Shown piece after piece: positions 127 to 27,302 of a stretch of 28,443 nt of DNA. The stretch is from a virus, in the IMG/VR virus record IMGVR_UViG_3300017963_000644, positions 1 to 28,443 of that record; one strand, written 5' to 3'. The notes beneath the pieces are model-generated. The model was not told the origin of the DNA. It did not search any database and was given only the letters and a program-made list of their open reading frames with translations. The translations under genes and the position numbers were made by a program. Numbering within the stretch: position 1 is the first letter of the stretch; each line of letters starts with the position of its first letter.

Positions 127-143
127 TCTTTTGAGTAAAATCA

Positions 144-4297: not shown

Positions 4298-4318
4298 AGT
4301 ACCTTCTCCTTTCCCTTT

Positions 4319-4597: not shown

Positions 4598-4784
4598 TTA
4601 ATATCTCCCATATCCAGCGTTTACTTTTTCCACGCCTGTCAACCAGACGATAAAATCTCCCACATTTACATTGAACCATGTGACCGGCTTGAATACAAAG
4701 ACAGTTCGCAATGAATATTTTCCCGAGGCATTTCGGACAAATCCCATACCACCCGACTCCCCATCTATAGATTGAAAGCGTCAT
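4500..4784 (-). CDS. Small zinc-ribbon protein
   Basis: A 94-aa protein with CPKC at residues 16-19, then CLC and CKC pairs within residues 29-41, a likely zinc ribbon or knuckle. It is followed by a basic patch (YRLVDRRGKSKRW) and a hydrophilic, Gln/Lys-rich C-terminal tail that may be disordered. The start overlaps the stop of the 1081-aa gene as ATGA and has a strong ribosome binding site (GGAGG). The 3' third overlaps the next gene by 98 bases in a different frame, which is long for a phage and may mean the tail is under little constraint. Function unknown; small zinc-ribbon proteins in phages are often regulators or structural adaptors. Confidence 0.65.
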   Translation of the reverse strand: MTLSIYRWGVGWYGICPKCLGKIFIANCLCIQAGHMVQCKCGRFYRLVDRRGKSKRWIWEILNENPGTSKRDEQNQAAHVSKLQGNAKAPQKDF

Positions 4785-7700: not shown

Positions 7701-8026
7701 GTGTGAGAATTAGGATCAGCATAACATCCGGGACCCCGTGCCGGTTCGGGAGTTATACAGACATTTCCTCCGGAAAGGTAAGGGACAAGCTCTTCCCAGG
7801 AATTCCCATAGCCCAAAACGTGAGTTTGAGAAAAATAACGAGTCCCCCGCGCACAAATGACCTTCCGATAACCGCCGCTGAGATCCTCAACAGAGAACAC
7901 TTGACCAGTTACAAGATCAGAATCAGAATGAAGGGAAGGATGATTCCAAAATCTGATTAACAAGCTATAATCAGTCCCGTTAATATTTATGGGGGGATTC
8001 AATATTGTGGCAAAGCCAAAACTCAT
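4781..8026 (-). CDS. Large tail-tip or receptor-binding protein candidate
   Basis: A 1081-aa protein, the largest in the window, located at the end of the tail module. It is beta-rich with high Gly, Tyr, Trp and Cys content throughout (for example CQTYKDFYGQCPG and CGCNYYESW around the last third), and has no signal peptide, membrane segment or clear catalytic motif. Several segments read like carbohydrate-binding or jelly-roll strands, but no domain can be named. Size and position (last structural gene before the lysis-type genes) fit a host-recognition or tail-tip protein. The start overlaps the upstream stop as ATGA, with AGAGGA as the ribosome binding site. The family is unrecognised. Confidence 0.85.
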   Translation of the reverse strand: MSFGFATILNPPININGTDYSLLIRFWNHPSLHSDSDLVTGQVFSVEDLSGGYRKVICARGTRYFSQTHVLGYGNSWEELVPYLSGGNVCITPEPARGPGCYADPNSHTGPDSAHRAQIGDVFLWNNQGFLITKALPFQEAPPEGINWQNESLNRIQLLTVGLIYPEDYKWFAFDLSSGAKTIKIGETSGLFDDGNIAWEDTGVEQGQMVKKTWESSEDYYPVDACLGFGEFFPDLIKKRLVFPSTNVKRESDNKYWCDVDRLLITYYEYNLSGYDLTPSTAFVFEGAGSGLSHEEDHFSGAFAEIERPEPFSAHSQSLMVGKVEGAGGLMWRKDLSSGSPFFAWDYNESGILVLRYRLEPDGMIYSSGAGTFPPVVTLKLEESAAGEMKAWYNAGAGWILHDTISLDLTYRFFGGAWGAEDAGFRGVFTSSYTVSVMSIGEADNGILSIRKDEVEYTPYQNKWYWEIQRPWSSAIFSVYNFDTQQEFTQVESGLDLKRNTYMDFDGKLVFAMEAFGDRLRITYEGEDSSSPPGRNPGGVKNFGEGGTDPNQNIGNWRDALIIYDPEDEMQAVNGSEFSVRRNAGFDPRETFNIYFDIQNDGTHTWTLIPDENCIKKPLMNFVLVEKSWVDANIDLSKQYCFQGRGKKFFQLNSVSPRYFNELEKCIQVMNTCEIHPQRGEGAHICGEGQMYPVPTTRFCDEEDNNVWGGWAVGITGSHVNREKTNAYFQKRNGTRLYQAHSYFGNRIPTGGIVYPNGWMEICGTPEQGDLYYTLGGVCQTYKDFYGQCPGLLINGLVSGGALNPILGWCADGYCGEPDDASPWYEGDRGIANAMATFFAWASTGAQNYCGCNYYESWAVGHEEIAPAFNFTPTFFQPSPILKRMPRGTIINSAYMEFKLSGAWRRVRNKEWNSGVVMNDIDGIGESFSFSLMKMKKDSRNYDPPCSYDPKPPYQSEFAMVGQGGVIGGAINQQEVSGVIDCTGMIQALVDDHDSGYGYYFLFPSQGTGLVLGENQFSFLRGLLPDSYGAMGANYLYFSNMVMQYWSALSVNKIIINFTLPSGIEEKIVIEYHGNALEEKS

Positions 8027-9930: not shown

Positions 9931-9931
9931 G

Positions 9932-10489
9932 TTATCCTTGATCCGTACAAAATCCAATAAATCCTGTTATTTCTAACTGATAAGTGATTGTTGCTCCTTC
10001 ACCGCTACCTCCACCGCCCCCACAAGGGAAGCGAACCAGGGCAACAGACCCATCTCGATCAATGATTTGAACTGAGCCAGAATCCCCGATCGTCAAAAAA
10101 TTGTTCCCTTCCTCAAGGGTTCCATAGTACCCGTCGCCACCGTCTGTTTCAGCCCAACACATACCGGCGATAACAACGCTTCCCGCTTGATCTGAAGGGA
10201 TTTTTTCAAGACAGACGGCAATTATATCAAGACAGTCTGTTGCGTCTGGAATAGCCACTTCCAGGACGGTTTGAACCTGCTTCGATCCATCAGAAAGGGA
10301 ACTCCCCCGAACAATGCAAACGTCATGAAGGTTCAAATCTGTCTCTCCTACATTTTGAGCCAACACAACGATTGCCGGATGTACCTCAGATTGAGCACCT
10401 CCGGCGAGATTAGCAGATTCATTGACCAGGCGAATAATATCATTCATGGTTTTTGCTTTTATAGTTTCGCCTTTTTTTACGCGTTTCAT
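9932..10489 (-). CDS. Unknown tail-module protein with Gly-rich linker
   Basis: A 185-aa protein. The basic N-terminus (MKRVKKGETIKAKTMNDII) is followed by a beta-rich body with repeated short strands (VVLAQNVGE, VQTVLEVAI, GSVVIAGMCW, GSVQIIDRDG) that looks like an OB or beta-barrel-type capping domain. A Gly/Ser linker (CGGGGGSGEG, about residues 156-165) joins it to a short C-terminal strand segment. No family recognised. TAATG overlap with the upstream gene shows coupling. In other phages small proteins at this place connect the distal tail to fibres or hub; that is inference from position only. Confidence 0.75.
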   Translation of the reverse strand: MKRVKKGETIKAKTMNDIIRLVNESANLAGGAQSEVHPAIVVLAQNVGETDLNLHDVCIVRGSSLSDGSKQVQTVLEVAIPDATDCLDIIAVCLEKIPSDQAGSVVIAGMCWAETDGGDGYYGTLEEGNNFLTIGDSGSVQIIDRDGSVALVRFPCGGGGGSGEGATITYQLEITGFIGFCTDQG

Positions 10490-11325
10490 TAGGGTCCCTT
10501 CAATCCAAAAGAATCAAAATCCAGATCTTCATATACTTTTGCGATATGAACAGATTTGATCAGGCGTTTCAGTTCCCCACCGGCTGTTAATGTTTGATGT
10601 TGAAACCATACGTAATTCCAGGGGTTGATTGTTAGAGGTCCGACAGTAGAGCCATCAGCCAGGGTAATGACCGGGGTTGTCTGTATTTTTCCGATCAAAA
10701 AATTATATTCAATCAACCAGTCATTTGTCCGAACTTTATTGATAGCCGCTCCGATAAATAACACTTCTCCTGGAGCATAACCTTTCCAGTTTTTTGAATT
10801 CACATGAGCCAAGCGCGCTTGTATCGCCGCTTGAGCTGCAAGGAGTGTGTCATCCTCCACATGACGAGTCACTTTGAGGGACATGGAAGGGCGATAAACG
10901 TCCACCCCGTCAACGTTGTTACCATTGACACCGATAGCAACCCCCACATCGACACCGTAGTTTGTTTGATATAATGGATCGCTGACACTGTTTATATGGG
11001 TTTGTTGCGCTGATAAATCCCATGACCAGGTTTCACCGTGTTCATTCTCTATATTGTAGATGTCTGAAGAACGATAAACAATCGTCACGAGAGAAAATTT
11101 TGTACTGTAATATTGAGCCTTTATTTCTTCGATCTTCGCCATGTCAAACGTGGTGTGAGGATCCCCCAACTCAAAAGGCGCGGGAAGCGTTGACACAAGC
11201 CCGATTTGTTTCAAAACTTCTTCCGGAACCGGATTATCAGCCAGGAAAACCCGCGTTATCCTGATCCCTTCCTCAGTCTGTTCAAAAAGCCCTGAGTCAT
11301 ATTGCTCTTTCAAGATGAGTGTCAT
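10489..11325 (-). CDS. Putative distal tail protein
   Basis: A 278-aa protein directly after the tape measure, where lambda-like phages place minor tail/distal tail proteins (gpM/gpL or Dit-type). It is beta-rich with several aromatic clusters (WSWDLSAQQTHIN, NPWNYVWFQHQT) and no Cys cluster. No motif of Dit or gpM is clear, so the name rests on gene order. The ATG overlaps the tape-measure stop as ATGA, with a modest ribosome binding site (AAGGCGG). No signal peptide or membrane segment. Confidence 0.75.
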   Translation of the reverse strand: MTLILKEQYDSGLFEQTEEGIRITRVFLADNPVPEEVLKQIGLVSTLPAPFELGDPHTTFDMAKIEEIKAQYYSTKFSLVTIVYRSSDIYNIENEHGETWSWDLSAQQTHINSVSDPLYQTNYGVDVGVAIGVNGNNVDGVDVYRPSMSLKVTRHVEDDTLLAAQAAIQARLAHVNSKNWKGYAPGEVLFIGAAINKVRTNDWLIEYNFLIGKIQTTPVITLADGSTVGPLTINPWNYVWFQHQTLTAGGELKRLIKSVHIAKVYEDLDFDSFGLKGP

Positions 11326-12953
11326 TCATACACCGCCTTCATAGATACAGGATTCTTTTCAATTTTTAACAATGATTGTGAGATTTTTTTCAGCTCTTTG
11401 AGTTGGTCTCTGCTTATTTTTTGAGGACCGCCTAACATTTCACTCATACGTCCCCCAAAGAACCCAACAACACCCCGGCTTGTTTTATCTTCAGGCACAG
11501 TAGGGAGCATGGGAGGGGTAATTTTATATTTTGACAGGTCAACCCCTGAATAAATACCGGAAAGCGTACCCATAAAATCTTTTAGGATATTGGTAAGCTC
11601 CGGCTTTCCTTTGTTGCGCTCCTTGATCGCTGCTTCAAAAAGTTCATTTGCTTGAAAGGCATTCCAGGTGAACGCCTGAACTTTTTCATGAAGATCGTCA
11701 AAAAATTTTACCTTCACTTTGGGAACCTTGTCAACAAGACCCTTGAGCTTTTGAGCGATCCCTTGATCAAACACGCTAAAAAATTTAGCGAAAGATTTCA
11801 TGATTCCTTTCATCCAGTCTTGAATCACGCCAAAAGCCTTGTGTGTACCATCAACTACAAAATCAATTATACTGATAAAACCCAGGGAAAGGCTGTTCTG
11901 AATTGTATAAACCCAATCTGACAGGGTTTTGTCGAAAATGGTAAAGCCATTAGCCAGGGAATCCAAAGTACTATTCACACCGACATCAAGCACACCCAAG
12001 GAATCAAGGATTGACCCCACTGCCACAACGATTGTTGCCGTGAGTCCTGTGATAACTCCAGTCGTAAAGATTAAGGGGGAGGTTGCCGCCATTAAACCCA
12101 CGCCAACCGCCATAAAGGTTCCTCCCAAAGCAGTCAAAGCAACCCCCACCTTCCCAAGGGAAGTGATAATTTGGGGATGTCTGGAGAGAAACCCCCGGAG
12201 TTTTACATTTATCATTGTGACTCTATCCATGAGATTTCTTAATGTAGGAGCGAATCTTTGAGCGATCGTCATGGAAACACCCATGAGAGAAAACTTTAAC
12301 CTGGTAAAAGCATCCTGCATATCCTCAGCCAAGGTAAAATCAACATCACCCGTTAAAAACGTGTATTCGTTTCGAAGTTTCTTGATAGATTCAGCTCCGG
12401 CGTTAAAAAGTGGAACTAGGTGAGTTCCAGCCCGCCCAAAGATTTTTTGAGCCAGGGCGGCTTTTTTTGATTTATCCTCAAGGTTTGAAAGGGCATTAGC
12501 TATTATATAAAAATGCTCTTCAGATTTTTTTCCTTTTAAATCTTCCGTGGAAACACCAGCATCAACCAAAGCATCAACGTATGTTTTCATACCCCTTTCA
12601 GCATCATAAATACACTGTTGCATCTTCTTAATTGCGCGCTCTACTGCGTTCAGCCCCGCGCCGGTTATCTCGGAAGCGTAACCCAGCTCGCTAAATGATT
12701 GTGCGGATATTCCCGCGCGCCTTCCGATCTTTGCGATATTATCTCCGTATTTCGTAAATTGTTGAACGCTTTTTGTCAGGGGAGCCAGGATAGCCAGCCC
12801 CGCAGCGGAAAGCCCCGCACCCAGTTTCAGGAGCTTTCCCCCAAAAGCTGACAGCTTGCCCTGAGCCTCCTTTAATTTGGTTTCTAAGCCTTTTAAATCA
12901 GCTCCTATTGGTACGTAAGCCCCTCCCATTTTTACAGCGTCAGCTAAGCCCAT
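11322..12953 (-). CDS. Tail tape-measure protein
   Basis: A 543-aa protein. The N-terminus has the tape-measure look: a helical, Lys/Ala-rich segment (LKGLETKLKEAQGKLSAFG) leading to a small hydrophobic stretch (residues ~42-60), then the characteristic core around residues 70-210 (GDNIAKIGRRAGIS, ALAQKIFGRAGTHLVPLFNAG). A long hydrophobic region (~265-320, LGGTFMAVGVGLMAATSPL) would be the membrane-channel part used in DNA ejection. It follows the two tail chaperone genes, exactly as in lambda. Using the rule of about 0.15 nm per residue, the tail would be near 80 nm, short for a siphovirus; the rule is approximate. The ATG is immediately after the previous stop, with AGGAGA upstream. Confidence 0.93.
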   Translation of the reverse strand: MGLADAVKMGGAYVPIGADLKGLETKLKEAQGKLSAFGGKLLKLGAGLSAAGLAILAPLTKSVQQFTKYGDNIAKIGRRAGISAQSFSELGYASEITGAGLNAVERAIKKMQQCIYDAERGMKTYVDALVDAGVSTEDLKGKKSEEHFYIIANALSNLEDKSKKAALAQKIFGRAGTHLVPLFNAGAESIKKLRNEYTFLTGDVDFTLAEDMQDAFTRLKFSLMGVSMTIAQRFAPTLRNLMDRVTMINVKLRGFLSRHPQIITSLGKVGVALTALGGTFMAVGVGLMAATSPLIFTTGVITGLTATIVVAVGSILDSLGVLDVGVNSTLDSLANGFTIFDKTLSDWVYTIQNSLSLGFISIIDFVVDGTHKAFGVIQDWMKGIMKSFAKFFSVFDQGIAQKLKGLVDKVPKVKVKFFDDLHEKVQAFTWNAFQANELFEAAIKERNKGKPELTNILKDFMGTLSGIYSGVDLSKYKITPPMLPTVPEDKTSRGVVGFFGGRMSEMLGGPQKISRDQLKELKKISQSLLKIEKNPVSMKAVYE

Positions 12954-13142: not shown

Positions 13143-13507
13143 GTCTTGGATTGACCAGGGGTTCCCGTCTTGTTCGGTATCTGAGGGTTTAGCGGAAAAT
13201 CCTCACTCTCAGGAAAGGCATCCGTTAAAGCGTTAATAAAGGCATCCATAGCTGATTCAAAAAATATTTCCGTTGTTACTCGATTAGTATAAAATTCCTT
13301 TTCTGTTACCTTCAATGCCTGTGCTAAATGCCTACACGAATACCACAAACACCCGATCATTGATCCGACATTCATCTCTGTAAAATTATAAAAGTCTTTC
13401 AACTTAAGATCATTTGCCCGGCACATATCACGGAGAATAAACATATTTATCCGACACACCCAAGTTTGACCGGTTGCATCTTTAAATTCGTGACTTTTTA
13501 CGCTCAT
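13139..13507 (-). CDS. Tail assembly chaperone (gpG-like position)
   Basis: A 122-aa protein between tail tube and tape measure. The short N-terminal beta part (FKDATGQTWVCRI) is followed by a helical body (MFILRDMCRANDLKLKDFY, ESAMDAFINALTDAF) and a Pro-rich tail. This matches chaperones that hold the tape measure during tail assembly. The ATG overlaps the tail-tube stop as ATGA with GGAG upstream. The family assignment rests mainly on synteny. Confidence 0.78.
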   Translation of the reverse strand: MSVKSHEFKDATGQTWVCRINMFILRDMCRANDLKLKDFYNFTEMNVGSMIGCLWYSCRHLAQALKVTEKEFYTNRVTTEIFFESAMDAFINALTDAFPESEDFPLNPQIPNKTGTPGQSKT

Positions 13508-13890
13508 GATAACGCTCCTGATCCTGTGATTTTCATGGTAATCGTGACGCAGTTATCAACCGGGACTGATACGTGCCATTGTGACAGGTATCCGGTTCCA
13601 GTTTCTGACAATGCGCCTCCCCCTGTTTCAACAAAAACCACATCCAACAACGTCCCCGCAGCAAATGCACTCTTCAGGGTAGGAATAATAGAGTCATCCG
13701 TGTCTCGAACGATCTCTATTGTATTAGTTTCCCAGGAGTGCAACCCAGGATCGACCTCTTTATTTCCCCCAGAATTTTTTGTTGTGACATCGTTCATCTC
13801 TTTATCCCGGTTTATCTCAACGCCCTTGTGCCTCAACAGCTCACTCCCCCCAAGTGAGAGAGTGCAAACATACCCTTTTACCGTTGCCAT
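13504..13890 (-). CDS. Major tail tube protein
   Basis: A 128-aa protein with the composition and layout of a tail-tube subunit: MATVKGYVCTLSLGG start, then KGVEINRDKEMNDVTTKNSGG (typical tube strand and loop), a central domain containing IEIVRDTDDS, and a C-terminal beta strand pair (VSVPVDNCVTITMKITGSG). It is short compared with lambda gpV (246 aa) because the C-terminal Ig-like domain is absent. Strong ribosome binding site (AAAAGGAG). Follows the tail terminator gene and precedes the chaperones, as expected. Confidence 0.88.
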   Translation of the reverse strand: MATVKGYVCTLSLGGSELLRHKGVEINRDKEMNDVTTKNSGGNKEVDPGLHSWETNTIEIVRDTDDSIIPTLKSAFAAGTLLDVVFVETGGGALSETGTGYLSQWHVSVPVDNCVTITMKITGSGALS

Positions 13891-15788: not shown

Positions 15789-17987
15789 TTATTCTAAATC
15801 GACCTCTGCGTAAGCCTGGAACTCGTTTTCCAGACGTCCTTTTGCCGCAAAGTTTAAACACTCCGCTCCCTCGGGCAAGTCATATTCAAGCCGGATAAAA
15901 ACTCCGAACGGACAAGGACTTTCCCCTTGAATGCCAACCGGTTGCAGTTTTTCAATTTTCCCGTCCCTTTTATAGTATAACTGGTATTTGTCAACAACCG
16001 CCGTTTCTCCTGGTTGTGTTGCCATAATCCTCAAGGCAAGGCTCCCTAGTTTTACCCGGAAGGGTATAGATACAACCTCGGATTTCGTTTTCGCCTTATC
16101 CCATAGGCTCCCGATCTGCCGTAACGTGATAGTAGTCCCATTGCCAGCCTCATGGATTTCCTCGATAAACAGATCAATGCAGGGATTGTCAATCTGCACA
16201 TATGATCCGTTACAACAGATATACCCATGATGAACATCAACGTCATAGTACATTGCCCCATTTGAGGTAGCTGCGCTTGTTACAGGATTTAGGATTAATC
16301 GATCCTTGACGGTCAGGGTTTCCCCGCCATCGCCGAACTCGAAATCGTTTTTGCAATATCCCACATTCCCGTCCGTCCTGAAGTACACTTTCGCTGTGTG
16401 GGATGAATCATAAATCAGCAGCTCACCGTCCCCATCAGAATCATTACCAATGATGCTGAGATTACCTTCTGCACTGTCTCTGATATACATATATTGACTA
16501 CCGCCTTGCATATCAAACACTACTCGCCCGTCCACGTGTAATGGATAATCCATGTCCGTTTCCACGATGCCGAGTTTTGCAAAATAACCATATTGGTTGC
16601 TATCACAAATCGTTGTGTCACCGATTTTATAAGCAGTATCCGCCAACACTGTGCCGCTCGTGTTGATGTCACCGCTCGCATTAATCCCGCCAGTTGCAGG
16701 ATTGTTGGCGGTTCCCGTGCGGAGAGAATCCGCAATAAATATATCGTCTGTTTTCAATACATTAGACGCCCCACGGTACAGATTTGTGTCATATGTCGGG
16801 CTCCCGGGAACGTCTTCCTGCCAGCCGAATTCTAATTTACCGGATGTACCGCTTGTCCACTTTAAAAACAATTCGTCAATGGTTGCCACATCTCCGATTT
16901 CAACATCATTAATAACGGTTAATTCATCTCCGATTGTGACATCACCAGCCACATCCAAAGATAATGTTTTTCTCTCGGTAAAGGTTACGTTGCTATTGCC
17001 AACACCCGACCCCACGCATTGGCTATAATAAACCGTTGTATTTGATCCATCACTATTTTGGAATAGGGGAGCTGCTCCGTTATCATTATAAAATTCACAA
17101 CCATAAAGGTAAAGGTTAATAGTAAGCCCGCTATCTTGTGATCTCATTCCCGGATACGAACTCCCCGTTATAAAAGTACTATTATATATTTTTGTTGTTG
17201 AGTTTCCCGATCCCATCCAAAGACCACACCCCCCAGAAACCTCAATCAGGCAATCAAACATTTCAGACGTTCCACCTCTCACACTTATTGCATCCGTCGT
17301 CGAACTTATCGAATCGGTATTGATATAACAGTTAGACACGCACCCGTTATCAACAATAAGGACATCTTGAGCATGGGAAATCAAATCACAGTTTTTAACA
17401 AGCCCCTCCCCCGACATATAAACCGCAACAGAAGGATAAGAGCTCCTTTCATTCTCAATATAAAAATTCCGTAATTCCCCGTTCGTTATCCTCACAACAT
17501 ATCCAGTTTGAGCATTTACTTCATCCCAAGTCTGATCAGATACTATCCTACAGGATTTTCGATCAATGCCCACAAGGGAAACATAATCTTTACATGTGAT
17601 CTTTTCATCATACGTTCCCGGATAAACAAAAACCGTATACGTATTGGTCGAAGCCGCATCGCTGATTGAATCAATCGCCTCCTGTATCGTCGTATAATCC
17701 GCCCCGCTCTCTGCAACCGTCACCACATTTGCCGGATTCAAGCCCACATCAGCCAGCCCACGTGATACCCAGCTTGTCCCCGTACCAGAAAAAACAGCAA
17801 CATCAGAGGTTGCCCCGGTGTCATAGTTCGTGACGTTGACTCGCTGCGAGATATCTGTTTCCGTGAACTCCTGGAAGGTTCCATCTGCATCACCGTCCAA
17901 CTTCAAGGATTTAGCCTTATAGGTAGTTAAACCCCACACGGATTGAATCAAAGCAAAAATAATCAAAATAAGAAAAAATTTTTTCAT
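15789..17987 (-). CDS. Signal-peptide-bearing beta-helix (pectin-lyase-like) protein
   Basis: A 732-aa protein. Residues 1-19 are a clear Sec signal peptide (MKKFFLILIIFALIQSVWG, cleavage likely after Gly19). Residues ~88-335 form a right-handed beta-helix of the pectate-lyase/pectinesterase superfamily (GADYTTIQEAIDSI, VFVYPGTYDE, DYVSLVGIDRKSC, followed by rungs such as VKNCDLISH). Residues ~345-470 have GDVTIGDELTVINDVEIGD-like strands recalling the repeat protein at 19175-20212. The C-terminal ~160 residues are a separate globular domain. Catalytic residues cannot be assigned. Beta-helices are common in tailspikes, but tailspikes normally lack signal peptides, so export to the host envelope is a real alternative. 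The ribosome binding site is AGGAGG. Confidence 0.9.
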   Translation of the reverse strand: MKKFFLILIIFALIQSVWGLTTYKAKSLKLDGDADGTFQEFTETDISQRVNVTNYDTGATSDVAVFSGTGTSWVSRGLADVGLNPANVVTVAESGADYTTIQEAIDSISDAASTNTYTVFVYPGTYDEKITCKDYVSLVGIDRKSCRIVSDQTWDEVNAQTGYVVRITNGELRNFYIENERSSYPSVAVYMSGEGLVKNCDLISHAQDVLIVDNGCVSNCYINTDSISSTTDAISVRGGTSEMFDCLIEVSGGCGLWMGSGNSTTKIYNSTFITGSSYPGMRSQDSGLTINLYLYGCEFYNDNGAAPLFQNSDGSNTTVYYSQCVGSGVGNSNVTFTERKTLSLDVAGDVTIGDELTVINDVEIGDVATIDELFLKWTSGTSGKLEFGWQEDVPGSPTYDTNLYRGASNVLKTDDIFIADSLRTGTANNPATGGINASGDINTSGTVLADTAYKIGDTTICDSNQYGYFAKLGIVETDMDYPLHVDGRVVFDMQGGSQYMYIRDSAEGNLSIIGNDSDGDGELLIYDSSHTAKVYFRTDGNVGYCKNDFEFGDGGETLTVKDRLILNPVTSAATSNGAMYYDVDVHHGYICCNGSYVQIDNPCIDLFIEEIHEAGNGTTITLRQIGSLWDKAKTKSEVVSIPFRVKLGSLALRIMATQPGETAVVDKYQLYYKRDGKIEKLQPVGIQGESPCPFGVFIRLEYDLPEGAECLNFAAKGRLENEFQAYAEVDLE

Positions 17988-17996
17988 AGATTCCTC

Positions 17997-18539
17997 CTAT
18001 CTGAAATAAATTACAACATTGATATCAGCATGATCCCCTGAACTGTGAATATGCAAGTATAAATACTCCGAACTCGTGTCAATAAAAATTGACCCAGTTG
18101 CATAAACAGTTCGATCCGTCCCGGAGCCGGTATTTGTCAGAGTTGCGTCTATATTAGACGCTCCACCGGCTTCATATACCGCATCACTTGCCCTCACAGT
18201 AGTTTGACCGGTTAAACCGGTATAAACCCCGGCGTCAAGCAAAATCCCCAGGATGGCAACGGAAGCCCCAAAAAGCACCATCGGCACTTTGAGCCTGAAA
18301 TCAGCAGCGAGTGTTTCTTCTGGCACACCAGGGAGATAAAGAGACAGAGATTTCACTCTATTAGGAAGAACGGCTTTTACCGGACTCCCGTTACCATCAA
18401 GACATACGATATGAGATTGACTTTCATAATCATCGGTAGGCATGTTATCGCCGGAAATCTCGCTTTCGAAATCGGTGGAACCTGATTCAGCGAAGGCGAG
18501 ACCACCATCTGTTTTTGCCTGCAAAAAACGATCAGGCAT
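17997..18539 (-). CDS. Unknown accessory structural protein
   Basis: A 180-aa protein. The hydrophilic N-terminus (~50 residues, rich in Asp/Glu/Ser) is followed by a moderately hydrophobic stretch (VPMVLFGASVAILGILLDAG, about residues 86-105) and a beta-rich C-terminal domain (TVRASDAVYEAGG, EYLYLHIHSSGDHADINVVI) that looks like a small jelly roll. Two-domain architecture of helix or anchor plus beta domain fits a trimeric fibre or head decoration. No family recognised. Clear ribosome binding site (AGGAGAG). Lies in the accessory island between neck genes. Confidence 0.8.
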   Translation of the reverse strand: MPDRFLQAKTDGGLAFAESGSTDFESEISGDNMPTDDYESQSHIVCLDGNGSPVKAVLPNRVKSLSLYLPGVPEETLAADFRLKVPMVLFGASVAILGILLDAGVYTGLTGQTTVRASDAVYEAGGASNIDATLTNTGSGTDRTVYATGSIFIDTSSEYLYLHIHSSGDHADINVVIYFR

Positions 18540-18542
18540 GAT

Positions 18543-18911
18543 TTACTCTCCTGAAGGTTGCGTTAAGACCAGGCTGGTAATCTCTTGTTTCTCTCCAGCT
18601 GCGACAACCAGAGACGTCACCTCAACATCACCGCCACCGCCTACTGTAGTAACAGTCAAGGTTGCAACCACTGTCAAATCGTCTGATTTGAGAAGAACAG
18701 CATGGTCAATGGTTCCTCCCGTGGCATCTGAATCATCGGTAATGGTATTAGCTGTAATCGCGCCATTCACAGCAGCACCGAACGCCGTCGCGGAGAGCGC
18801 ACATTTTGCGACCTCATTGTCCCCAGCTGTTCTTAATTCCAGATAACCATTATCACACAGATCTCCAAGGGCTTCAATCATTGCATTACGAGATGCAGTT
18901 TCGAGAATCAT
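18543..18911 (-). CDS. Small structural protein, probable capsid or neck accessory
   Basis: A 122-aa protein. The N-terminal helix (ETASRNAMIEALGDLCDNGYLELRT) followed by Ala/Gly/Thr-rich strands (SATAFGAAVNGAITANTIT, LTVVATLTVTTVGGGG, VTSLVVAAGEKQEI) looks like small phage structural proteins encoded near fibres, although I cannot name a family. Excellent ribosome binding site (TTAGGAGGATTTT then ATG). It is the first gene of the accessory island, after the head-tail joining candidate. Confidence 0.8.
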   Translation of the reverse strand: MILETASRNAMIEALGDLCDNGYLELRTAGDNEVAKCALSATAFGAAVNGAITANTITDDSDATGGTIDHAVLLKSDDLTVVATLTVTTVGGGGDVEVTSLVVAAGEKQEITSLVLTQPSGE

Positions 18912-18920
18912 AAAATCCTC

Positions 18921-19175
18921 CTAATATGGGAATTGTAAAATATCACCAATTCGTATATCTTCCGTGGGAGGAACCGATAATAGGGTTTCCCCTCCCACAC
19001 GGAATAACGTGATATCACAATCCAATGTTACACCTTCCCCTAAGACCTCGTCAAAGCCTCCCATCCCGTCAGGCTCTTTGGCGGGATGGTAGACTTGACA
19101 AGAATTAACTTGAACATCTTCAGAGATCACGTCTCCGAAGAGTCCAAACAGCTCATTTCTTTCAGGGCTTGACAT
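18921..19175 (-). CDS. Putative head-tail joining (stopper) protein
   Basis: An 84-aa protein when started at the ATG at 19175, which overlaps the previous stop as TGATG and has GGAG seven bases upstream; a TTG one codon earlier is possible. The segment VYHPAKEPDGMGGFDEVLGE with VTLDCDI matches the usual pattern of head-tail joining proteins (a strand, a D-x-x-G-G turn, then a strand). It is shorter than typical family members (about 100-110 aa). Located downstream of the capsid gene, as expected for a stopper. Moderately supported. Confidence 0.7.
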   Translation of the reverse strand: MSSPERNELFGLFGDVISEDVQVNSCQVYHPAKEPDGMGGFDEVLGEGVTLDCDITLFRVGGETLLSVPPTEDIRIGDILQFPY

Positions 19176-20212
19176 CAATATTCTCCGTACACGGTACCGA
19201 TTACATCCGCACTCGTAGGAAGCCAGTTTGACGTTGACGTGGCTTTGATCCCGATCACATCTCCCGCGCTAACTGTGTGTGTGTCATTCACAACAAATGT
19301 GACAGCATACTGGTTTGACGGATCAATCACAGCTTGAAGCCCAGTAGGGGTTCCGTCAATCGTGACGTCAAGAGTAAGGCTCCCACTGGTACACGCTTCA
19401 GACGAATAAGCGGTTATCCCGTATATCGAACCAGCCACAGAAGCAACATTCCCCTGGAAGGAAGTTCCGCCTTTATCCGCACTCGGATCCATTCCCCAGG
19501 GTTGAGCGTTTTGACTCGCGGCAACGTCATAGTCAAAAAAGGAAATTTGGTAAATCCGGGTTTCATCATACCCGTTGACATCCCCGGTCAAGTTACCCGT
19601 GACGTTACCCGTAACATCACCTGTCAAGTCACCTATGAAAGTCGTTGCCGTGGAAGTCGTAACGTTACTGGTATCACCCGTAAGATTCCCTGTAACGTTG
19701 CCCGTAACGTTGCCCGTGACATTTCCGGTTAAATTTCCAATAAAAACTGTGGCTGTGGAGGTTGTAACGTTACTGGTATTGCCCGTAACGTTGCCCGTGA
19801 CATTTCCGGTTAAATTTCCAATAAAAACTGTGGCTGTGGAGGTTGTAACGTTACTGGTATTGCCTGTAAGATTTCCTGTGACATTGCCCGTGACATTTCC
19901 GGTAACGTCTCCTGTTAAATCTCCCGTCACATTCCCAGTTACGTCCCCCGTCAAATTTCCTATAACAGCCGTTGCTGTAACAGTTGTAAAACTACAAGAG
20001 TCACCAGTTATGTCACCCGTTATATCACCGACAATCCCGCCGTCTGCCTGGATGGAGCAATCGGCTTCAAAGGCTCCAGTGGAACGGATCACAACATCAT
20101 TTTTAAACATTGTGTTTCGATCTTCCACTTTCCAGTAAATCCCTGTGTCATACGCGACAACTACAGCCACAACAAAAAGGAGAGCTGTTAAAAGTAACGA
20201 GATTTTTTTCAT
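19175..20212 (-). CDS. Exported GN[LV]T-repeat protein
   Basis: A 345-aa protein when started at the ATG at 20212, which has GGAGGG five bases upstream; a frame reaching 20236 lacks this. Residues 1-20 are a Sec signal peptide (MKKISLLLTALLFVVAVVVA). Residues ~62-214 are built of G-[ND]-[LVI]-T tetrapeptides organised in units of about 27 residues (TSNVTTSTATVFIGNLTG and variants), predicting a thin beta-solenoid. The C-terminal ~130 residues form a globular beta domain (YQISFFDYDVAASQNAQPW). The repeat has no catalytic motif. Position immediately after the major capsid gene suggests a virion appendage, but the signal peptide suggests export to the periplasm or cell surface. Confidence 0.85.
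   Translation of the reverse strand: MKKISLLLTALLFVVAVVVAYDTGIYWKVEDRNTMFKNDVVIRSTGAFEADCSIQADGGIVGDITGDITGDSCSFTTVTATAVIGNLTGDVTGNVTGDLTGDVTGNVTGNVTGNLTGNTSNVTTSTATVFIGNLTGNVTGNVTGNTSNVTTSTATVFIGNLTGNVTGNVTGNVTGNLTGDTSNVTTSTATTFIGDLTGDVTGNVTGNLTGDVNGYDETRIYQISFFDYDVAASQNAQPWGMDPSADKGGTSFQGNVASVAGSIYGITAYSSEACTSGSLTLDVTIDGTPTGLQAVIDPSNQYAVTFVVNDTHTVSAGDVIGIKATSTSNWLPTSADVIGTVYGEY
19575..20030 (-). repeat. Tandem coding repeats (81-bp unit) inside the exported repeat gene
   Basis: The GNxT-coding stretch contains an 81-bp unit: 19721-19783 and 19802-19864 are identical over 63 bases, and a diverged copy lies at 19640-19720. Shorter 12-bp (four-residue) steps fill the rest. Such near-identical copies point to recent slippage or recombination and length variation. 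Confidence 0.9.
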
Positions 20213-20228
20213 AATAACCCTCCTTCCT

Positions 20229-21215
20229 TTAGGCATAAATCCCGGTAATAATTTGACCTTGACTCGCGTTCATGATCTTGATTTCCGTGTCCATTCGAGC
20301 ACGGAGCACCTTCCCACGAACGGGATTGGAACCGTAGCTCTCCACCGTTGCGCCGATTGTTGAACCATCAGCCGCCCAATGTAGAGTTCGAGCCATCGAG
20401 GGAGTTGCAGGGTTGCGATCTCCCGGAGGCGCGATACGGCATAACAACGCCTTCTCATTGCTCCAGATATCCGCAATGACAACATCCTTATCCGGCTTCG
20501 CCGTGTTACGAATCGCATCGGCAACAAAGAAATAGTCAATGTCAAACACTTGAGCCAGAACCGTCGGAGTAATATCTGAAGCCTTAACAGCTCCCCCGGC
20601 TCCCTGTGAGGCGATACGGTCAATGATTTTCGTATTGTGGCGGAGATGCATCGAATACACGTTCCAGGTAACCACCATACAGTTCGGTTTGTATCCGCAC
20701 CGATCCCGCATGGTTTTTTTGTTGTTGTCAACATCGGTAATAGGATCTCCATCTGTGTGATTTTTCCAGGTAGCTCCGCAGGCTGCGTTTTGGATTGCAT
20801 CAGTATCCATTACCGTGTCAGCGATTTGTTTTTCCCGATCACGAAGCACAATGTCACGGGAAATTTCAGCTGACACGAGTTCCGCGTCAAAAAAGTTCGC
20901 ATACACCGCCTTTAGGCGATCATCGACAGGAATTTCAATCCCGGTTTCCTTACATGAGAAAGAATCCGTGTCAAAATCCCATGCGACCCTTTGATAGTCC
21001 CCGCGGGAAGATCGACCTAACCCCCCCTCAGGATTAATCAACAGAGACCGAAGCGGGATTATAGGGAAAGGTCCCCCGGCTAACCCCATTTCTAGAGGCA
21101 CGGCAACCTTTAACCCGATAAATCCATTTCGTGCCATTGCCAGATCAAGCTCCGATAAAGCTTGACCCAACTCGGGACGATATGAATAGACAGTAGTTCC
21201 AGGCGAAGGATACAT
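20229..21215 (-). CDS. Major capsid protein (lambda gpE-like)
   Basis: A 328-aa protein when started at the ATG at 21215, eight bases after GGAG; the GTG at 21224 lies within the ribosome binding site itself. Features of the gpE-type capsid family include residues ~180-205 (CMVVTWNVYSMHLRHN, the conserved strand-helix with a following DRI), DITPTVLAQVFDIDYFFVADA and IWSNEKALLCRIAPP near the P-domain end, and a C-terminal strand/helix. Its place after the protease/scaffold and decoration genes is the lambda order. It builds the icosahedral shell. Length agrees with gpE (341 aa). Confidence 0.88.
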   Translation of the reverse strand: MYPSPGTTVYSYRPELGQALSELDLAMARNGFIGLKVAVPLEMGLAGGPFPIIPLRSLLINPEGGLGRSSRGDYQRVAWDFDTDSFSCKETGIEIPVDDRLKAVYANFFDAELVSAEISRDIVLRDREKQIADTVMDTDAIQNAACGATWKNHTDGDPITDVDNNKKTMRDRCGYKPNCMVVTWNVYSMHLRHNTKIIDRIASQGAGGAVKASDITPTVLAQVFDIDYFFVADAIRNTAKPDKDVVIADIWSNEKALLCRIAPPGDRNPATPSMARTLHWAADGSTIGATVESYGSNPVRGKVLRARMDTEIKIMNASQGQIITGIYA

Positions 21216-21272: not shown

Positions 21273-21656
21273 TTATTCAGATTTTGGAATTCCATAACCT
21301 GACAGATACATTCCTTCGAAAAGATCACCATCTGTGCTCGCTGAAGTTAATGCAATTCCGATCTTATAAGCACCTGTGGCTTGAGATCCAGAAACCTTCC
21401 CGTTAGCCGCGGAATAAAAAGGATTTCCAGCTGAAATTGCACCTGAAGCAACGAAGTGGCGAGATCCAGAAACATTCCGAAGAATCACGCCTGAATTTGC
21501 TTGATTAGCGGCAACAGGAATATCAATAGTACCGATCTCAAGATCATCCAATCCCGCCAATTCAAGAACACCAGCAGGGAGTTTTACACGAATACCGCGA
21601 ACCCTTGCGGTGTCACCATTTGTGAATCCCCTTGTTCCAGCATTTATAAGAGACAT
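21273..21656 (-). CDS. Head decoration protein (DUF2190-like)
   Basis: A 127-aa protein when started at the ATG at 21656 with GGAG upstream; a longer frame to 21677 overlaps the protease stop and lacks that. Repeated Gly-rich beta hairpins (GTIDIPVAANQANSGVIL, GAISAGNPFYSAANGKVSG, GAYKIGIALTSASTDGDLFEG) are characteristic of DUF2190/gpD-position decoration proteins, including the typical A..G-PVY/FYSAANGKV motif and the GI-A...S..GD segment. It likely stabilises the expanded capsid. Gene order protease, decoration, capsid is exactly lambda C-D-E. Confidence 0.85.
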   Translation of the reverse strand: MSLINAGTRGFTNGDTARVRGIRVKLPAGVLELAGLDDLEIGTIDIPVAANQANSGVILRNVSGSRHFVASGAISAGNPFYSAANGKVSGSQATGAYKIGIALTSASTDGDLFEGMYLSGYGIPKSE

Positions 21657-21660
21657 AGGT

Positions 21661-22092
21661 TTACTCCTTTCCTTCATGAATTTTTTGATTTAATGCGACC
21701 ACGAACGATTTATGAACGTCAGGGTAATCGAGTGCAATTGCCCGATTCGCTTCGCTTGTGGACATCCCCTGTTTTTTGAATTCACCCTGGAGATGTTTGA
21801 ACGCTAAAATCGGGTCAGCCTCATCCAGGGTTTTTCTCCCCACAGGCTTTCCTGGTAAACAGCTAACGGGGTCAAAACCAAGGCTTCGCTTTTGTTTTTG
21901 CGCTTCTGCCTGCGCTTTTTCCTGCGCTTCAATCTGCTTTTGCTGTGCCGCGATAAAGGCGGATTGTGCCTCCACAACAGTAGATCCCGCTTTCACCTGA
22001 GCGAGAACGAAATCAGACGACGCTCCAGGACACGCTCTTTCCAGTTCTTCAATGGTAGCTGTTACGGGAGCCTCTTTTTCTTTCTGATTCAT
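21661..22092 (-). CDS. Nested scaffold protein (Nu3-like), in-frame internal start
   Basis: Inside the protease gene, the ATG at 22092 (codon 306) is preceded by AAAGGAGGAAGTAATT, a ribosome binding site as good as any in the operon. The product would be 143 aa, starting MNQKEKEAPVT and including the coiled helical Gln/Ala region. Lambda makes its scaffold Nu3 the same way, from an internal start in gene C. The internal signal is seen in the sequence; separate translation is inference. Confidence 0.8.
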   Translation of the reverse strand: MNQKEKEAPVTATIEELERACPGASSDFVLAQVKAGSTVVEAQSAFIAAQQKQIEAQEKAQAEAQKQKRSLGFDPVSCLPGKPVGRKTLDEADPILAFKHLQGEFKKQGMSTSEANRAIALDYPDVHKSFVVALNQKIHEGKE

Positions 22093-23007
22093 AATTACTT
22101 CCTCCTTTCCATCAGTTTTCATATCAATTTGAGCTGATATTTTGCTTCTACTTGCCGCCTTCAAAACTTCCTTGAAGGTCTTTACTCCATCAGTGAGCCC
22201 GACTTTTTGAGCTTCTTTTCCAATCCATACGCGCCCATCAGCCAGGGGACGAATCTCTCTCAAAGATAATCCGCGCCCCTTAGCGACTCCGAAAAGAAAA
22301 AAATCATAGAATGAATTGACAACCTTTTGGAGTTCCTCCAGCTGTTCCGGAGAAATTTCAGTTCCAACAGTTCCCGCACCCTTGAAGTCCCCGGTTGTAA
22401 TCAAATGAACTTTGATCCCCATTTGTGCAGCTTGCATTGAGTAATCATACACAGCAGAGAAAACACCTATAGAACCAACCAAAGCCGTTGAATTCGTATA
22501 GATTTTATGAGCCTGAGAAGCAATCCAGTAAGCCGCTGAAGCACCGGTGTCCTCAATGAACGCTAAAACGGTTTTTTGCTCCGCTGCTTTCTGTATCTCA
22601 TCAGCCAGGTCTTGTATTCCAGAAACGGTTCCACCAGGGGAATCAATATTCAAAATAATTGAAATGACATCAGGGTTTTTCACCAGGGAACGAATCACGC
22701 TCCGGAGGCGAACCGTAGAAGTGGAATCACCCAGGGAAGTTTCAGCTTTCATAAGAAGCCCTTGTACCTGGACAACTGCGACCCGCTTTCCTTTTTGCCC
22801 TTCCGCGGGAAAAGTATTAAAATATCTGTCATCATTATAAGCGGCTTTAGGCACGCTATTTATATGAGAAATTAAATCCATATCCTTCACGCTTGAATAC
22901 ATGGATTTAATCACATCTGGAAGAATAGCCCACAACCCGAAATAATCCATAATCCGCGGAAAACTATTCTTTAGCTGTTTCGGTAGATTCAACAGGTTGT
23001 TTGACAT
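21661..23007 (-). CDS. Prohead protease, S49 (SppA/lambda gpC-like) with C-terminal scaffold
   Basis: A 448-aa protein. Residues ~75-280 are an S49 peptidase: SPGG (123-126, oxyanion region), TGASAAYWIAS with the nucleophile Ser157, and GDFKG with catalytic Lys209, the Ser-Lys dyad of this family. After a linker, residues 306-448 are a Gln/Glu/Ala-rich helical segment (AAQQKQIEAQEKAQAEAQKQ), the scaffold part, also translated separately from an internal start. Matures the prohead. Start ATG has GGAGG six bases upstream and overlaps the portal gene by 44 bases. The architecture copies lambda C/Nu3. Confidence 0.93.
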   Translation of the reverse strand: MSNNLLNLPKQLKNSFPRIMDYFGLWAILPDVIKSMYSSVKDMDLISHINSVPKAAYNDDRYFNTFPAEGQKGKRVAVVQVQGLLMKAETSLGDSTSTVRLRSVIRSLVKNPDVISIILNIDSPGGTVSGIQDLADEIQKAAEQKTVLAFIEDTGASAAYWIASQAHKIYTNSTALVGSIGVFSAVYDYSMQAAQMGIKVHLITTGDFKGAGTVGTEISPEQLEELQKVVNSFYDFFLFGVAKGRGLSLREIRPLADGRVWIGKEAQKVGLTDGVKTFKEVLKAASRSKISAQIDMKTDGKEEVIMNQKEKEAPVTATIEELERACPGASSDFVLAQVKAGSTVVEAQSAFIAAQQKQIEAQEKAQAEAQKQKRSLGFDPVSCLPGKPVGRKTLDEADPILAFKHLQGEFKKQGMSTSEANRAIALDYPDVHKSFVVALNQKIHEGKE

Positions 23008-24550
23008 CTGAGCCTCCTTTAGCCTGATATTTCCCGGTTATAATCTCGCGCCAATCTACATTAATATCGGGGAATTCTTTTTTTAAATCCTGAACTGCCT
23101 GCATCGCCTTTTGTATTTCCTGAAGCCGATCCTGCGTCCTTATCTTGATGAACTCTTCCCATTCCCTTCCGTATCGCTCTTGTTGAAGCTGGGAGGGAGA
23201 GATCATACCACCATCAAGCCGCGCTTGATCCGCTTTCGCATCCTGAAGCGGTTGAATGTATGGATATTGAGGACGCCCCCAGGTGTGATTAAACAGCTTA
23301 TCTTGAAGCTTCAAATAATACGCGGCGATCTTCGGATCAAATCCGGGGGAATCTTGCTCAAGCCAAAAATTCAGAAGCCATTTGTAATAGGGGCGACAAA
23401 TTTTCCCTGTTATAGAACCTTGATTCGATTTAAATCCGATCCGTGCCTGATCTACTACACCCCGGTAGCCTGAGAAATTTGTTTGCGAAGCATCAAGCAA
23501 AACCAGGATGAGCGGCATCCCGATCGCATTACCGATCAATGTTATTAAGAGTTTTACGTGTGAAAAATATTCCGGGTTCGGAATGTTCGGTGAAAAACCA
23601 GAAATTTTCTCCCCAGGGCGCCCAAAAATTTCCATACCAGGAGCCACGCTTTTTAGCACCCGCGTCCCTCCATTTTTCATAGTTTGCGTTGAACGAAGAT
23701 CCGATTCAGTACCCGGAAGCCCGGTCAATTTACGTGAGATATCGCCCTGTTCATGTAGGATTGCAAAGCATGACGCCGCTTGTTGCTGTACGAGTTTAGC
23801 GAAATTAATATCCTCGAACATACCAGCAATATCAGCCACACAAGCGAACGCCGAAAGTCCCCGCGTTTGACTTACACGTTTGGGGTTGTATAAATGAAAT
23901 ACCTGTCTTAAACCTCGATCGTCACGAACCTTGAAAGCTTCAACATCACCTACCCGTTGTATTTGATAAGACGGCGAAATCTCATCTTTCGTTACCCAGT
24001 ACTCAAGTCGTCTTCGGCGTTCATCCAACAGAACGCCCAGGACAACGTTTCTTTTCGTGTTTGACGGGGTTTTTACTCTGTGCGCTTCTATCAACTGCAA
24101 TGATCCCTCAGTAGTGGGAATGGCAATTATATCACCATCAATCAGCATTTGACGGAAGGAGAGTTTGAGCATCTCAAGAAAATCCAATTCCCCGGAGGCA
24201 TCAACCCTTTCCGGATCAGTGGTATGTTCAATCCATTTGTTTTTTAAATATTGGTCAACTTCAGGGTCACCCGTTTGTGGACGTAGGGGAAAACCGTCTC
24301 TAATAGTATTGTCAACAGCGCGCTTAACGATTTGACTAATCAAACTATCATTGACATCCATGTCACGGACATATTCCATGCCACGAAAAAACTTAGACTC
24401 ATCGATAAACATATAGTCAGCAGTTTTTCCAGTTGAGGATACACCCCGATTCCGGCGAAACCGCGAATTGTTTGCAACCTGGTATTCAGACTTCAAATCA
24501 TTGAACTGTTCAATCAGCCCTTTTTCGCTTAAATACCACTCACCAGACAT
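22964..24550 (-). CDS. Portal protein (lambda gpB-like)
   Basis: A 528-aa protein of the lambda portal family. Typical features: an N-terminal helical segment, DVNDSLISQIVKRAVDN in the first quarter, RQMLIDGDIIAIPTTEG and QLIEAHRVKTP (stem/wing region), VFHLYNPKRVSQTRGLSAF, then the conserved core around residues 265-365 (AASCFAILHEQG, GNAIGMPLILVLLDASQTNFSGYRG). It forms the dodecameric gate for DNA packaging. The start overlaps the upstream stop as TAATG. The hydrophilic C-terminal ~50 residues are variable. Overlaps the protease gene by 44 bases. Confidence 0.95.
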   Translation of the reverse strand: MSGEWYLSEKGLIEQFNDLKSEYQVANNSRFRRNRGVSSTGKTADYMFIDESKFFRGMEYVRDMDVNDSLISQIVKRAVDNTIRDGFPLRPQTGDPEVDQYLKNKWIEHTTDPERVDASGELDFLEMLKLSFRQMLIDGDIIAIPTTEGSLQLIEAHRVKTPSNTKRNVVLGVLLDERRRRLEYWVTKDEISPSYQIQRVGDVEAFKVRDDRGLRQVFHLYNPKRVSQTRGLSAFACVADIAGMFEDINFAKLVQQQAASCFAILHEQGDISRKLTGLPGTESDLRSTQTMKNGGTRVLKSVAPGMEIFGRPGEKISGFSPNIPNPEYFSHVKLLITLIGNAIGMPLILVLLDASQTNFSGYRGVVDQARIGFKSNQGSITGKICRPYYKWLLNFWLEQDSPGFDPKIAAYYLKLQDKLFNHTWGRPQYPYIQPLQDAKADQARLDGGMISPSQLQQERYGREWEEFIKIRTQDRLQEIQKAMQAVQDLKKEFPDINVDWREIITGKYQAKGGSDVKQPVESTETAKE

Positions 24551-25036: not shown

Positions 25037-25291
25037 TCATTTGATTTTACATGACTCAAGTATATACAGAAAAACTCTATTAGGGCGATCAATTAATTCA
25101 CCGGATTCTAACCGTTTACGTTGTTTCAGCAAACCATTAAGCATTCCTCGGAGTACTTGAGCCTTCTCCAGAGACAACCGCGAGATGTTAACATTTCTGA
25201 CGCAATACTCACCTTTTTTCACTTTCCGGAACGGAACTTCAACAGTCACTTTTGATACTTGAGTCACTTTTGACACTTGCTTTTTAACCAT
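25037..25291 (-). CDS. Unknown 84-aa protein following the large terminase
   Basis: A basic 84-aa protein, starting eight bases before the terminase gene ends and with a strong ribosome binding site (GGGGAGG). The N-terminus contains a six-residue tandem duplication (QVSKVT twice), encoded by an 18-bp direct repeat (25244-25279). The C-terminal half (NISRLSLEKAQVLRGMLNGLLKQ) is helical and may be a small DNA-binding or packaging accessory domain. Not recognised. A place between large terminase and portal is often used by small unknown phage genes. Confidence 0.7.
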   Translation of the reverse strand: MVKKQVSKVTQVSKVTVEVPFRKVKKGEYCVRNVNISRLSLEKAQVLRGMLNGLLKQRKRLESGELIDRPNRVFLYILESCKIK

Positions 25292-27302
25292 TGTAAAACC
25301 TCCCCATATTTTGAATATTATCTCGAAAACTCTTTACAAAATCATACTCATCTTGAGGCTCTGGTTCTCTCACCGGCTCTCTCCCTCCGGCTTGCTTATT
25401 CTGTATCATGATCTTACAAAAATTACTCGCACAAAGAGAGATATATAAACAATCGAAAAAATGATTGTTCCGGCTTTCCTGAATCCACTTTATCATTTCT
25501 CCTTTACCAGGGACTTCAACCTTAGTTTTCCGCTCAGCGGAAAAATGTTTTGTAATGGTAATATGTTCATTTTTATCCGGAGAGGAATAAAGTTGAATCG
25601 CCCCGGCTTGCTCCTCACCGTCAACCAGTACCGGAATAGTCAACGCTTCATGAGACCGAGTCTTCCAGTAGTCAGAATCAATTTCCACGAGCGCAATACC
25701 ATCAGAACGCAGATATTTGAAATAATATTGCAACCCAACAAATATTGTATTTTTGTCAATCTTTTGAGGTGATAAATAGTTCCTCCCTTTTATCCCACCA
25801 TACCCCTTTATTGGACGGTATCGAGTACCAAACTCATGGCAAAAATCATATAGAGCCTGGCGGGAATCGGCAAAGCCTGAATCGAACCAAACTTGAAGCG
25901 GCATCTTTCGTTCTTTTGAATCCACAACAGGAAACCCCGTTTCAAGAAATTCCTGGAAATCTTTGAGTGCAATCCGTGTGGCTGTATCTGTACCCAAGTC
26001 ATCCGCTGCAATCTCAAACTTGCCATAATTGCAAATCACGCCCTTATCATCAGCGCGGGAAGCCAAAAGGATATAATAGCCTAACCGTTTATGTAAGTCC
26101 ACCCCACCGGTAATCCAATCACACCATTGAGGAATTTCCCCCTTTAATGTTTGCCCTCGGCGTTTATTTGTAATTTTGTAATCAAGTATTGTGAGATTTA
26201 CCTCCGGAGATTCATACGGTATAGACCAATAAAACTGACAGAGCTTGCGCTCCATATCATCTTTTACTCGTTCATCTTCACACTGTTCTTTTTTCCACTC
26301 TTCAACCCCGATATCCCCAGGAACCCACATCCTATTGTTGAACGCATTCCACCGCATTGAAAAAGTCAAAACCTTTTCCGGGTCATTCCTATGTTTTATG
26401 TCACATTTTAGGTTCATGTTTTCCCGGTCATTCTGAGTCAATGGGTAAGCACAAGCCGGACAAATAAAATAAGATTTGAGATAAGCTTCCTTTTCAGTTT
26501 CCGCATCCTGCCAGCCTTTGAGATGTTCCCTTTCAGGTGTCACCCAAGATTTACAATACGGACACTGACACACAATATAACTATCAGTACCCGCTTTTAA
26601 CTCGCGATATGTTCTTCCCTTCTTTGTGGATAAAGTACATTCAAGATAAATCCGCTTTTGCATAATCCCGTGTGCCAAAGTTCGCGCTTCAATCTGTGAA
26701 ACAGGATCGGTTTCAATGGAAAGATCACTACCTTCATCAAACCCGTCAATTTCCGTGATTGCGGCAACACGGGTTTCATAATGAGCGCGGGATTTATCTC
26801 CCAACTTTCCTGCGCCCCCCCCTGTCATGATTTTTATTGACGTTCCGTTCCGGAAATCAATTGACGTGAACTCCCCGCCCCGGCTCCCCGCTCCTGTTAA
26901 TGGCATTAAATTTCTATACTTTGACCGCTTGATTATGGGTTCTAAATCTTTCTTCCACTTTTCCATTGCAATCAACGCCGTGGGTGTACCCAGAATTAAC
27001 CCCTCATTCATCTGAAAAAGATGATAAGTGGCAGGAATTATCCACCCGGCAAGGCTCTTTCCTGACTGTGTGCATCCAGTCAGAAGGTGCCGGGGGAATT
27101 TTTGAGAGTCAATCGCTGTGAACCAATGACGCAAAAACGGTTGACGGCTTAGCCGGAACCGTTGGTTTTTGAAAGGTCCCTTTGCAACTACTATATCACG
27201 TTCGCTAAATTCTGTCATGGTAAGCGGAGGCTTTGACTTACACTTAGCCAGAAACCACCGGAGAACCTTCTTTGTTGACGGTAATTTGACTTTCAACGTC
27301 AT
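25284..27302 (-). CDS. Terminase large subunit (GpA family)
   Basis: A 672-aa packaging motor protein. Walker A GCTQSGKS (76-83) and Walker B with the catalytic acid in AITEIDGFDE (181-190) form the ATPase. A zinc ribbon follows (C247/C250 and C281/C284), typical of the lambda gpA branch. The RNase-H-like nuclease shows Asp402 (GGVDLH), Asp474 or Asp479 (WFDSGFAD) and Asp617 (NHFFDCLYISL). The length matches gpA (641 aa). The start at 27302 has GAGGA upstream and overlaps the small subunit gene by 59 bases. The GpA type suggests cos-type or Mu/P21-like packaging; which of them is not shown. Confidence 0.96.
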   Translation of the reverse strand: MTLKVKLPSTKKVLRWFLAKCKSKPPLTMTEFSERDIVVAKGPFKNQRFRLSRQPFLRHWFTAIDSQKFPRHLLTGCTQSGKSLAGWIIPATYHLFQMNEGLILGTPTALIAMEKWKKDLEPIIKRSKYRNLMPLTGAGSRGGEFTSIDFRNGTSIKIMTGGGAGKLGDKSRAHYETRVAAITEIDGFDEGSDLSIETDPVSQIEARTLAHGIMQKRIYLECTLSTKKGRTYRELKAGTDSYIVCQCPYCKSWVTPEREHLKGWQDAETEKEAYLKSYFICPACAYPLTQNDRENMNLKCDIKHRNDPEKVLTFSMRWNAFNNRMWVPGDIGVEEWKKEQCEDERVKDDMERKLCQFYWSIPYESPEVNLTILDYKITNKRRGQTLKGEIPQWCDWITGGVDLHKRLGYYILLASRADDKGVICNYGKFEIAADDLGTDTATRIALKDFQEFLETGFPVVDSKERKMPLQVWFDSGFADSRQALYDFCHEFGTRYRPIKGYGGIKGRNYLSPQKIDKNTIFVGLQYYFKYLRSDGIALVEIDSDYWKTRSHEALTIPVLVDGEEQAGAIQLYSSPDKNEHITITKHFSAERKTKVEVPGKGEMIKWIQESRNNHFFDCLYISLCASNFCKIMIQNKQAGGREPVREPEPQDEYDFVKSFRDNIQNMGRFYNG

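Follow-up and report, generated by a model that had tools for sequence, protein, structure and literature searches.

Why should a phage place two genes for apparently secreted proteins between its capsid and neck genes, when tailed-phage assembly is otherwise cytoplasmic? The question arises from a stretch of 28,443 nucleotides (IMG/VR virus record IMGVR_UViG_3300017963_000644, positions 1 to 28,443; hereafter the window). An initial annotation had pointed to two Sec signal peptides within a virion operon of this stretch, on proteins of 345 and 732 aa that we call SP1 and SP2.

A temperate phage and its head-neck operon

The window virus is a temperate tailed phage. A provirus of 39,879 bp (IMGVR_UViG_3300017971_007923), identical to the window across the stretches compared, contributes beyond the window an integrase, a repressor-like gene and replication genes. 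The temperate assignment also draws on the 3' half of a tRNA-Lys(CTT) gene read by eye at the provirus end (window 75-127, -), where ARAGORN reported no complete tRNA; this half gene is a probable attachment site. Near it, on the opposite strand, lies a gene with PAPS-reductase and DUF3440 domains (1403-2641, +) that we take to be IbrA-like, with a 120-aa and a 228-aa gene ahead of it.

Relatives of the portal protein in named genomes came mostly from Planctomycetota, with one from Hydrogenedentota. None of the Planctomycetota loci examined has an exported gene in the capsid-to-neck stretch, so that a host in this phylum is not established. Searches of Elusimicrobia with the portal and SP1, and of Planctomycetota with p180 (the protein encoded directly upstream of SP2), returned nothing useful. 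A Hydrogenedentes MAG comes from the same metagenome as the provirus, 3300017971 (PMC7449369), which gives only a hint of the host.

The genes of the operon are as follows, in operon order.

25284-27302 (-): terminase, first in the operon
22964-24550 (-): portal
21661-23007 (-): S49 head protease
21273-21656 (-): cement protein
20229-21215 (-): major head protein gene, directly upstream of SP1 (phrog_1005, 8.5e-36)
19175-20212 (-): SP1 gene, predicted exported repeat protein of 345 aa
18921-19175 (-): 84-aa gene, overlapping the SP1 end by one base, conserved in the related contig L043
18543-18911 (-): 122-aa head protein (head122), found also in L043 and other phages (phrog_3758)
17997-18539 (-): p180, directly upstream of SP2; 49% identical in L043, with a weak relative in contig L101
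15789-17987 (-): SP2 gene, predicted exported beta-helix and shaft protein of 732 aa
14735-15712 (-): p325, repeat protein without a signal peptide, 3' of SP2 in both the window phage and L043
14313-14738 (-): Neck1-type gene, downstream border of the module, followed by a 140-aa gene (phrog_5, 2.5e-14)
13504-13890 (-): major tail protein, followed by a 122-aa gene
11322-12953 (-): tape measure

The initial annotation had the coordinates and length of both genes right. Its setting among capsid and neck genes was likewise borne out, with portal, S49 protease, cement and major head genes upstream and Neck1, major tail and tape measure genes downstream. Only 16 bases separate the major head protein gene from SP1. 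The p325 protein, for which no family match was found, has about ten ASGSG/TGxG-type repeats and a conserved C-terminus, EVEGKPFKL...VRRPIN, that is kept in L043. The large genes 3' of the tape measure gene (3689-10489, -) matched no Pfam or PHROG family, and no endolysin or holin was recognisable among the genes searched there.

Signal peptides and their conservation

For the signal-peptide calls we used a rule set that asks for a charged n-region, a hydrophobic h-region and a cleavage site obeying the -3/-1 rule. The two predictions in the window are as follows.

20153-20212 (-): SP1 signal peptide, residues 1-20, predicted cleavage MKKISLLLTALLFVVAVVVA/YDTG, h-region hydropathy 3.69
17931-17987 (-): SP2 signal peptide, residues 1-19, predicted cleavage MKKFFLILIIFALIQSVWG/LTTY, h-region hydropathy 3.78

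Both starts are preceded by strong ribosome-binding sites, AAGGAGG just 5' of the SP1 ATG and AGGAGG 5' of the SP2 start. As a positive control, the rules recognised all 10 of 10 classical E. coli signal peptides. The comparison set comprised 107 unique genes from 31 loci, each SD-preceded and lying downstream of a homologous capsid gene. Three of these were flagged, namely the two L043 orthologues of SP1 and SP2 and one weak false positive, giving a chance rate of about 1 in 105 control genes. SP1 and SP2 each combine the n-region, h-region, small residues at -3 and -1 and start codon of a Sec/signal peptidase I precursor, and the n-h-c layout with an acceptable cleavage site was found in five of five N-termini (two from the window, two from L043 and one from L101). 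Neither protein has a lipobox, and the rules typed both as SPI, suggesting that they would be cleaved by signal peptidase I. The annotated pair of Sec signal peptides thus stood up to the rule-based calls and to inspection of the ribosome-binding sites. Cysteine content, taken as a sign of disulphide folding, was not clearly above that of neighbouring genes. Signal-like N-termini on terminase-like ORFs in L033 (7081-9117, +) and L049 probably reflect errors of start codon or of the rules and were left aside.

A search with the portal yielded 71 loci, of which the 43.3-kb contig L043 was the only one syntenic across the whole region. The two phages are distant relatives (48% identity in the capsid protein, 49% in p180 and 58% in the neck protein). 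Homologues in the same position, which the initial annotation had proposed as a check, are present in L043 for both genes, signal peptides included: an SP1 orthologue of 226 aa that retains the signal peptide and the C-terminal domain, with the GNxT repeats missing, and an SP2 orthologue of 712 aa. The signal sequences are only 37-40% identical between the two phages. Their signal properties were thus kept while the letters turned over, a pattern expected of a functional signal. Gene spacing is tight in both phages, the SP1 and 84-aa genes overlapping by one base in the window and abutting in L043. Virion-operon location and conservation accordingly extend to one full syntenic relative. When viral contigs were scanned with SP2, the SP1 C-terminus, p180, the terminase and the capsid protein, nothing came up beyond the same two phages except two single matches, L101 for p180 and L098 for SP2; the latter was rejected as an unrelated fibre.

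Exported proteins were also predicted in the head operons of two further loci. In L101, a 5.4-kb contig with a PF05065 capsid gene, a 168-aa signal-peptide protein (MRKRVLYLIIVGLVLLVGSQSYA/QTSG) is encoded directly 3' of the capsid gene. Next come a connector-like gene, a gene read by eye as head122-like, and the p180 relative. In L136, a 13-kb Hydrogenedentota MAG contig, the genes for portal, head protease, cement and capsid proteins precede that for a 707-aa signal-peptide protein (MKRFLMAAAVVVVIVATVAA/NQMYQ) with fibre-like repeats. Since homology of the L101 protein to SP1 or SP2 was undetectable and the L136 protein was not retrieved by the SP2 profile, an exported gene in a head operon has probably evolved more than once. 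By comparison, no exported gene stands at the equivalent place in the sister loci whose portal and capsid belong to the same families, indicating that such capsids do not require export.

Signal peptides followed by fibre repeats are not limited to virions. On the chromosome of another Hydrogenedentota genome than that of L136, L148:2640-3890 (+) encodes an N-terminal signal peptide (MKVAPALFVLGFVACVAGCFAAHAQ), related fibre repeats and a Peptidase_S74 chaperone domain. The gene lies outside any recognisable phage context, and its frame is interrupted once near the N-terminus. Secreted fibre proteins therefore also belong to Hydrogenedentota cells. Matches of the SP2 profile in Hydrogenedentota genomes were weak, fell in the pectinesterase-like part and were set aside. 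Two side observations concern operons of other loci. A PASTA domain forms the N-terminus of a neck-region gene in the Hydrogenedentota prophage-like operon (L136:6256-6933, +). In the head module of L019, whose phage also has a head122 relative, genes for 66 and 77 aa (L019:1801-2231, -) bear a signal peptide and a lipoprotein-like N-terminus and are perhaps spanin-like.

Architecture of SP1 and SP2

The regions distinguished within the two mature proteins are as follows.

19586-20029 (-): SP1 region of G[ND][LVI]T repeats, residues 62-209, in part copied in tandem at the DNA level (81-base period)
19178-19597 (-): SP1 C-terminal domain, residues 206-345, conserved, with 35% identity to L043 over 125 residues
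17742-17930 (-): N-terminal domain of mature SP2, residues 20-82, conserved (61% identity to L043) and a candidate anchor
17256-17741 (-): SP2 pectinesterase-like beta-helix, about residues 83-244 (profile match 1gq8_A, E 1.8e-8)

Both proteins have features of fibres or spikes. SP1 matches the tail-fibre family phrog_30742 (1.8e-11) and contains 22 G[DN][LVI]T units, some of them recent tandem copies at the DNA level; at 19698-19900 (-) the 81-base repeats are 92.6% identical over 122 bases. This tandem-repeat stretch, missing from the L043 orthologue, is a length-variable shaft. For SP2, a sub-threshold Pfam match to Beta_helix accompanies the pectinesterase profile match, and shaft-like sequence follows the beta-helix. 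S. suis prophages have a similar beta-helix in a tail-region protein, which lacks a signal peptide. Structure predictions from two-sequence alignments, on which a trimeric elongated fold would be judged, were too poor for use (mean pLDDT 37.5 for SP1 and 30.8 for SP2). The initial annotation had further linked the two proteins through shared GD[LV]T/GDELTV strands, and this link was lost on counting: against the 22 units of SP1, SP2 has one G[DN][LVI]T unit where shuffling predicts 0.2 (p about 0.19, not significant), and GDELT occurs a single time, in SP2 only.

Pectinesterases of the 1gq8 family are recognised by catalytic Gln and Asp residues and a DFIFG-type motif. These catalytic motifs are not evident in the SP2 alignment: the first Gln lies opposite a Pro, DFIFG is absent, and a QD pair is one residue out of register in SP2 and missing from its L043 orthologue. 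SP2 thus resembles these enzymes by beta-helix profile and differs from them in its motifs; its beta-helix is probably a binding scaffold and not an enzyme.

Most of the shaft sequence of both proteins has diverged in L043. In SP2, identity falls from 61% over residues 20-82 to 42% and 27% in the next two segments and lies mostly at 18-30% beyond. Conservation that is highest just past the cleavage site and fades toward the C-terminus resembles that of an N-terminally anchored fibre.

Possible sites of action

The signals kept in both L043 orthologues, together with the non-homologous exported proteins in the L101 and L136 head operons, support export well. We regard export of SP1 and SP2 as highly probable, and it is very likely both real and selected. 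To explain the signal peptides away by misassigned start codons or by N-termini that are hydrophobic by chance would be far-fetched: the calls were made by rules, but strong ribosome-binding sites lie directly 5' of the signal-peptide starts, the signals recur in both L043 orthologues, and the rules err in only about one control gene in 105. Another alternative would have the N-termini stay uncleaved and the proteins unexported, as anchors for the particle or for head docking at the inner membrane face. The cytoplasmic assembly of tailed phages in general, and the lack of an exported gene in most relatives within the capsid family, speak for such an anchor. It is nevertheless unlikely, as an anchor has no need of the full n-h-c layout and cleavage site present in all five N-termini, and the conservation peak of SP2 falls past the predicted cleavage site and not in the hydrophobic stretch. 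The proteins could also be recent cargo from host surface-protein genes, exported but with no role for the phage, as the secreted fibre-repeat proteins on a Hydrogenedentota chromosome might suggest; the same order and coupling of both genes in L043, whose capsid protein is only 48% identical, make this very unlikely. The distant relative's retention of both export signals suggests that part of the virus's coat or adhesion machinery probably crosses the cell membrane. For the initial annotation this means that its proposal of export gained from the L043 signals and the L101 and L136 operons, while its shared-motif argument did not hold. On the fates that it had offered, namely a coat on the host cell surface, a part in superinfection exclusion or biofilm, and loading at the envelope, the sequence evidence leans both ways, as set out below.

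Two readings of what the exported proteins do carry the most weight. We tentatively prefer fibre- or spike-like appendages that join the particle outside the cytoplasm over proteins that stay free on the cell surface. The location beside the capsid gene, operon coupling, fibre architecture and conserved mature N-terminus of SP2 favour a place on the particle, as do the sequence-unrelated exported proteins 3' of capsid or head genes in L101 and L136 and the S. suis tail-region protein. Known head fibres and spikes are synthesised and attached in the cytoplasm, whereas SP1 and SP2 bear predicted cleavable N-terminal Sec signal peptides. In their fibre-type repeats, beta-helix and virion-gene location they otherwise resemble tail fibres, beta-helix tailspikes and phage head fibres such as that of phi29 and T4 Hoc (PMC7602432), and SP2 shares with these proteins a conserved N-terminus and a variable C-terminus. 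It is a realistic possibility that SP1 and SP2 act instead on the host envelope or outside the cell, by receptor masking or changed adhesion, with superinfection exclusion, shielding of progeny from debris that carries receptors, or altered adhesion by lysogens or by cells late in infection as variants. Besides the signal peptides themselves, precedents favour such a role: mEpimmI phages encode exclusion lipoproteins (Lpp) with signal peptides within the structural gene cluster (PMC11893012), Cor of phi80 and N15 blocks FhuA (PMC11436027), and the chromosomal L148 protein joins a signal peptide to phage-fibre-type repeats, though it has an S74 domain that SP1 and SP2 do not. Lpp and Cor are likewise signal-peptide proteins encoded amid virion genes, but they are lipobox-bearing lipoproteins of small size. 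SP1 and SP2 are a conserved pair between capsid and neck genes, fibre-like, large and of the signal peptidase I type, with neither a lipobox nor an evident membrane or wall anchor. Their coupling to the late head operon also means that expression in a lysogen would need a separate promoter.

Under the preferred reading of particle-joining appendages, SP1 and SP2 would be translated together with the capsid proteins from the late head-neck operon, carried out of the cytoplasm by Sec, cleaved by signal peptidase I and folded outside the inner membrane. Mature SP2 would then attach to the particle by its conserved N-terminal domain, and SP1 by some part of its sequence, either when lysis mixes the periplasm with finished particles or at the envelope, and the variable shafts and C-termini may serve in adhesion. 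More broadly, we offer as a speculation that tailed temperate phages of little-studied bacteria, with Hydrogenedentota among the possible hosts, make part of their particle surface outside the cytoplasm, Sec-secreted fibres or decoration proteins attaching in the periplasm or at lysis. In the literature searched, the coverage of which was incomplete, no tailed phage is described as exporting its fibres, and such two-compartment assembly, if true, would be as far as we found undescribed for tailed phages. If SP1 and SP2 belong to the particle, tailed-phage assembly would not be confined to the cytoplasm, and fibres might be exchanged with host-secreted adhesins. If they belong to the cell, they would be phage-encoded surface proteins of a new size class, produced from a late head operon. 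In either case, viromes can be screened for capsid-adjacent genes that encode a signal peptide, a simple marker that peptide data can put to the test.
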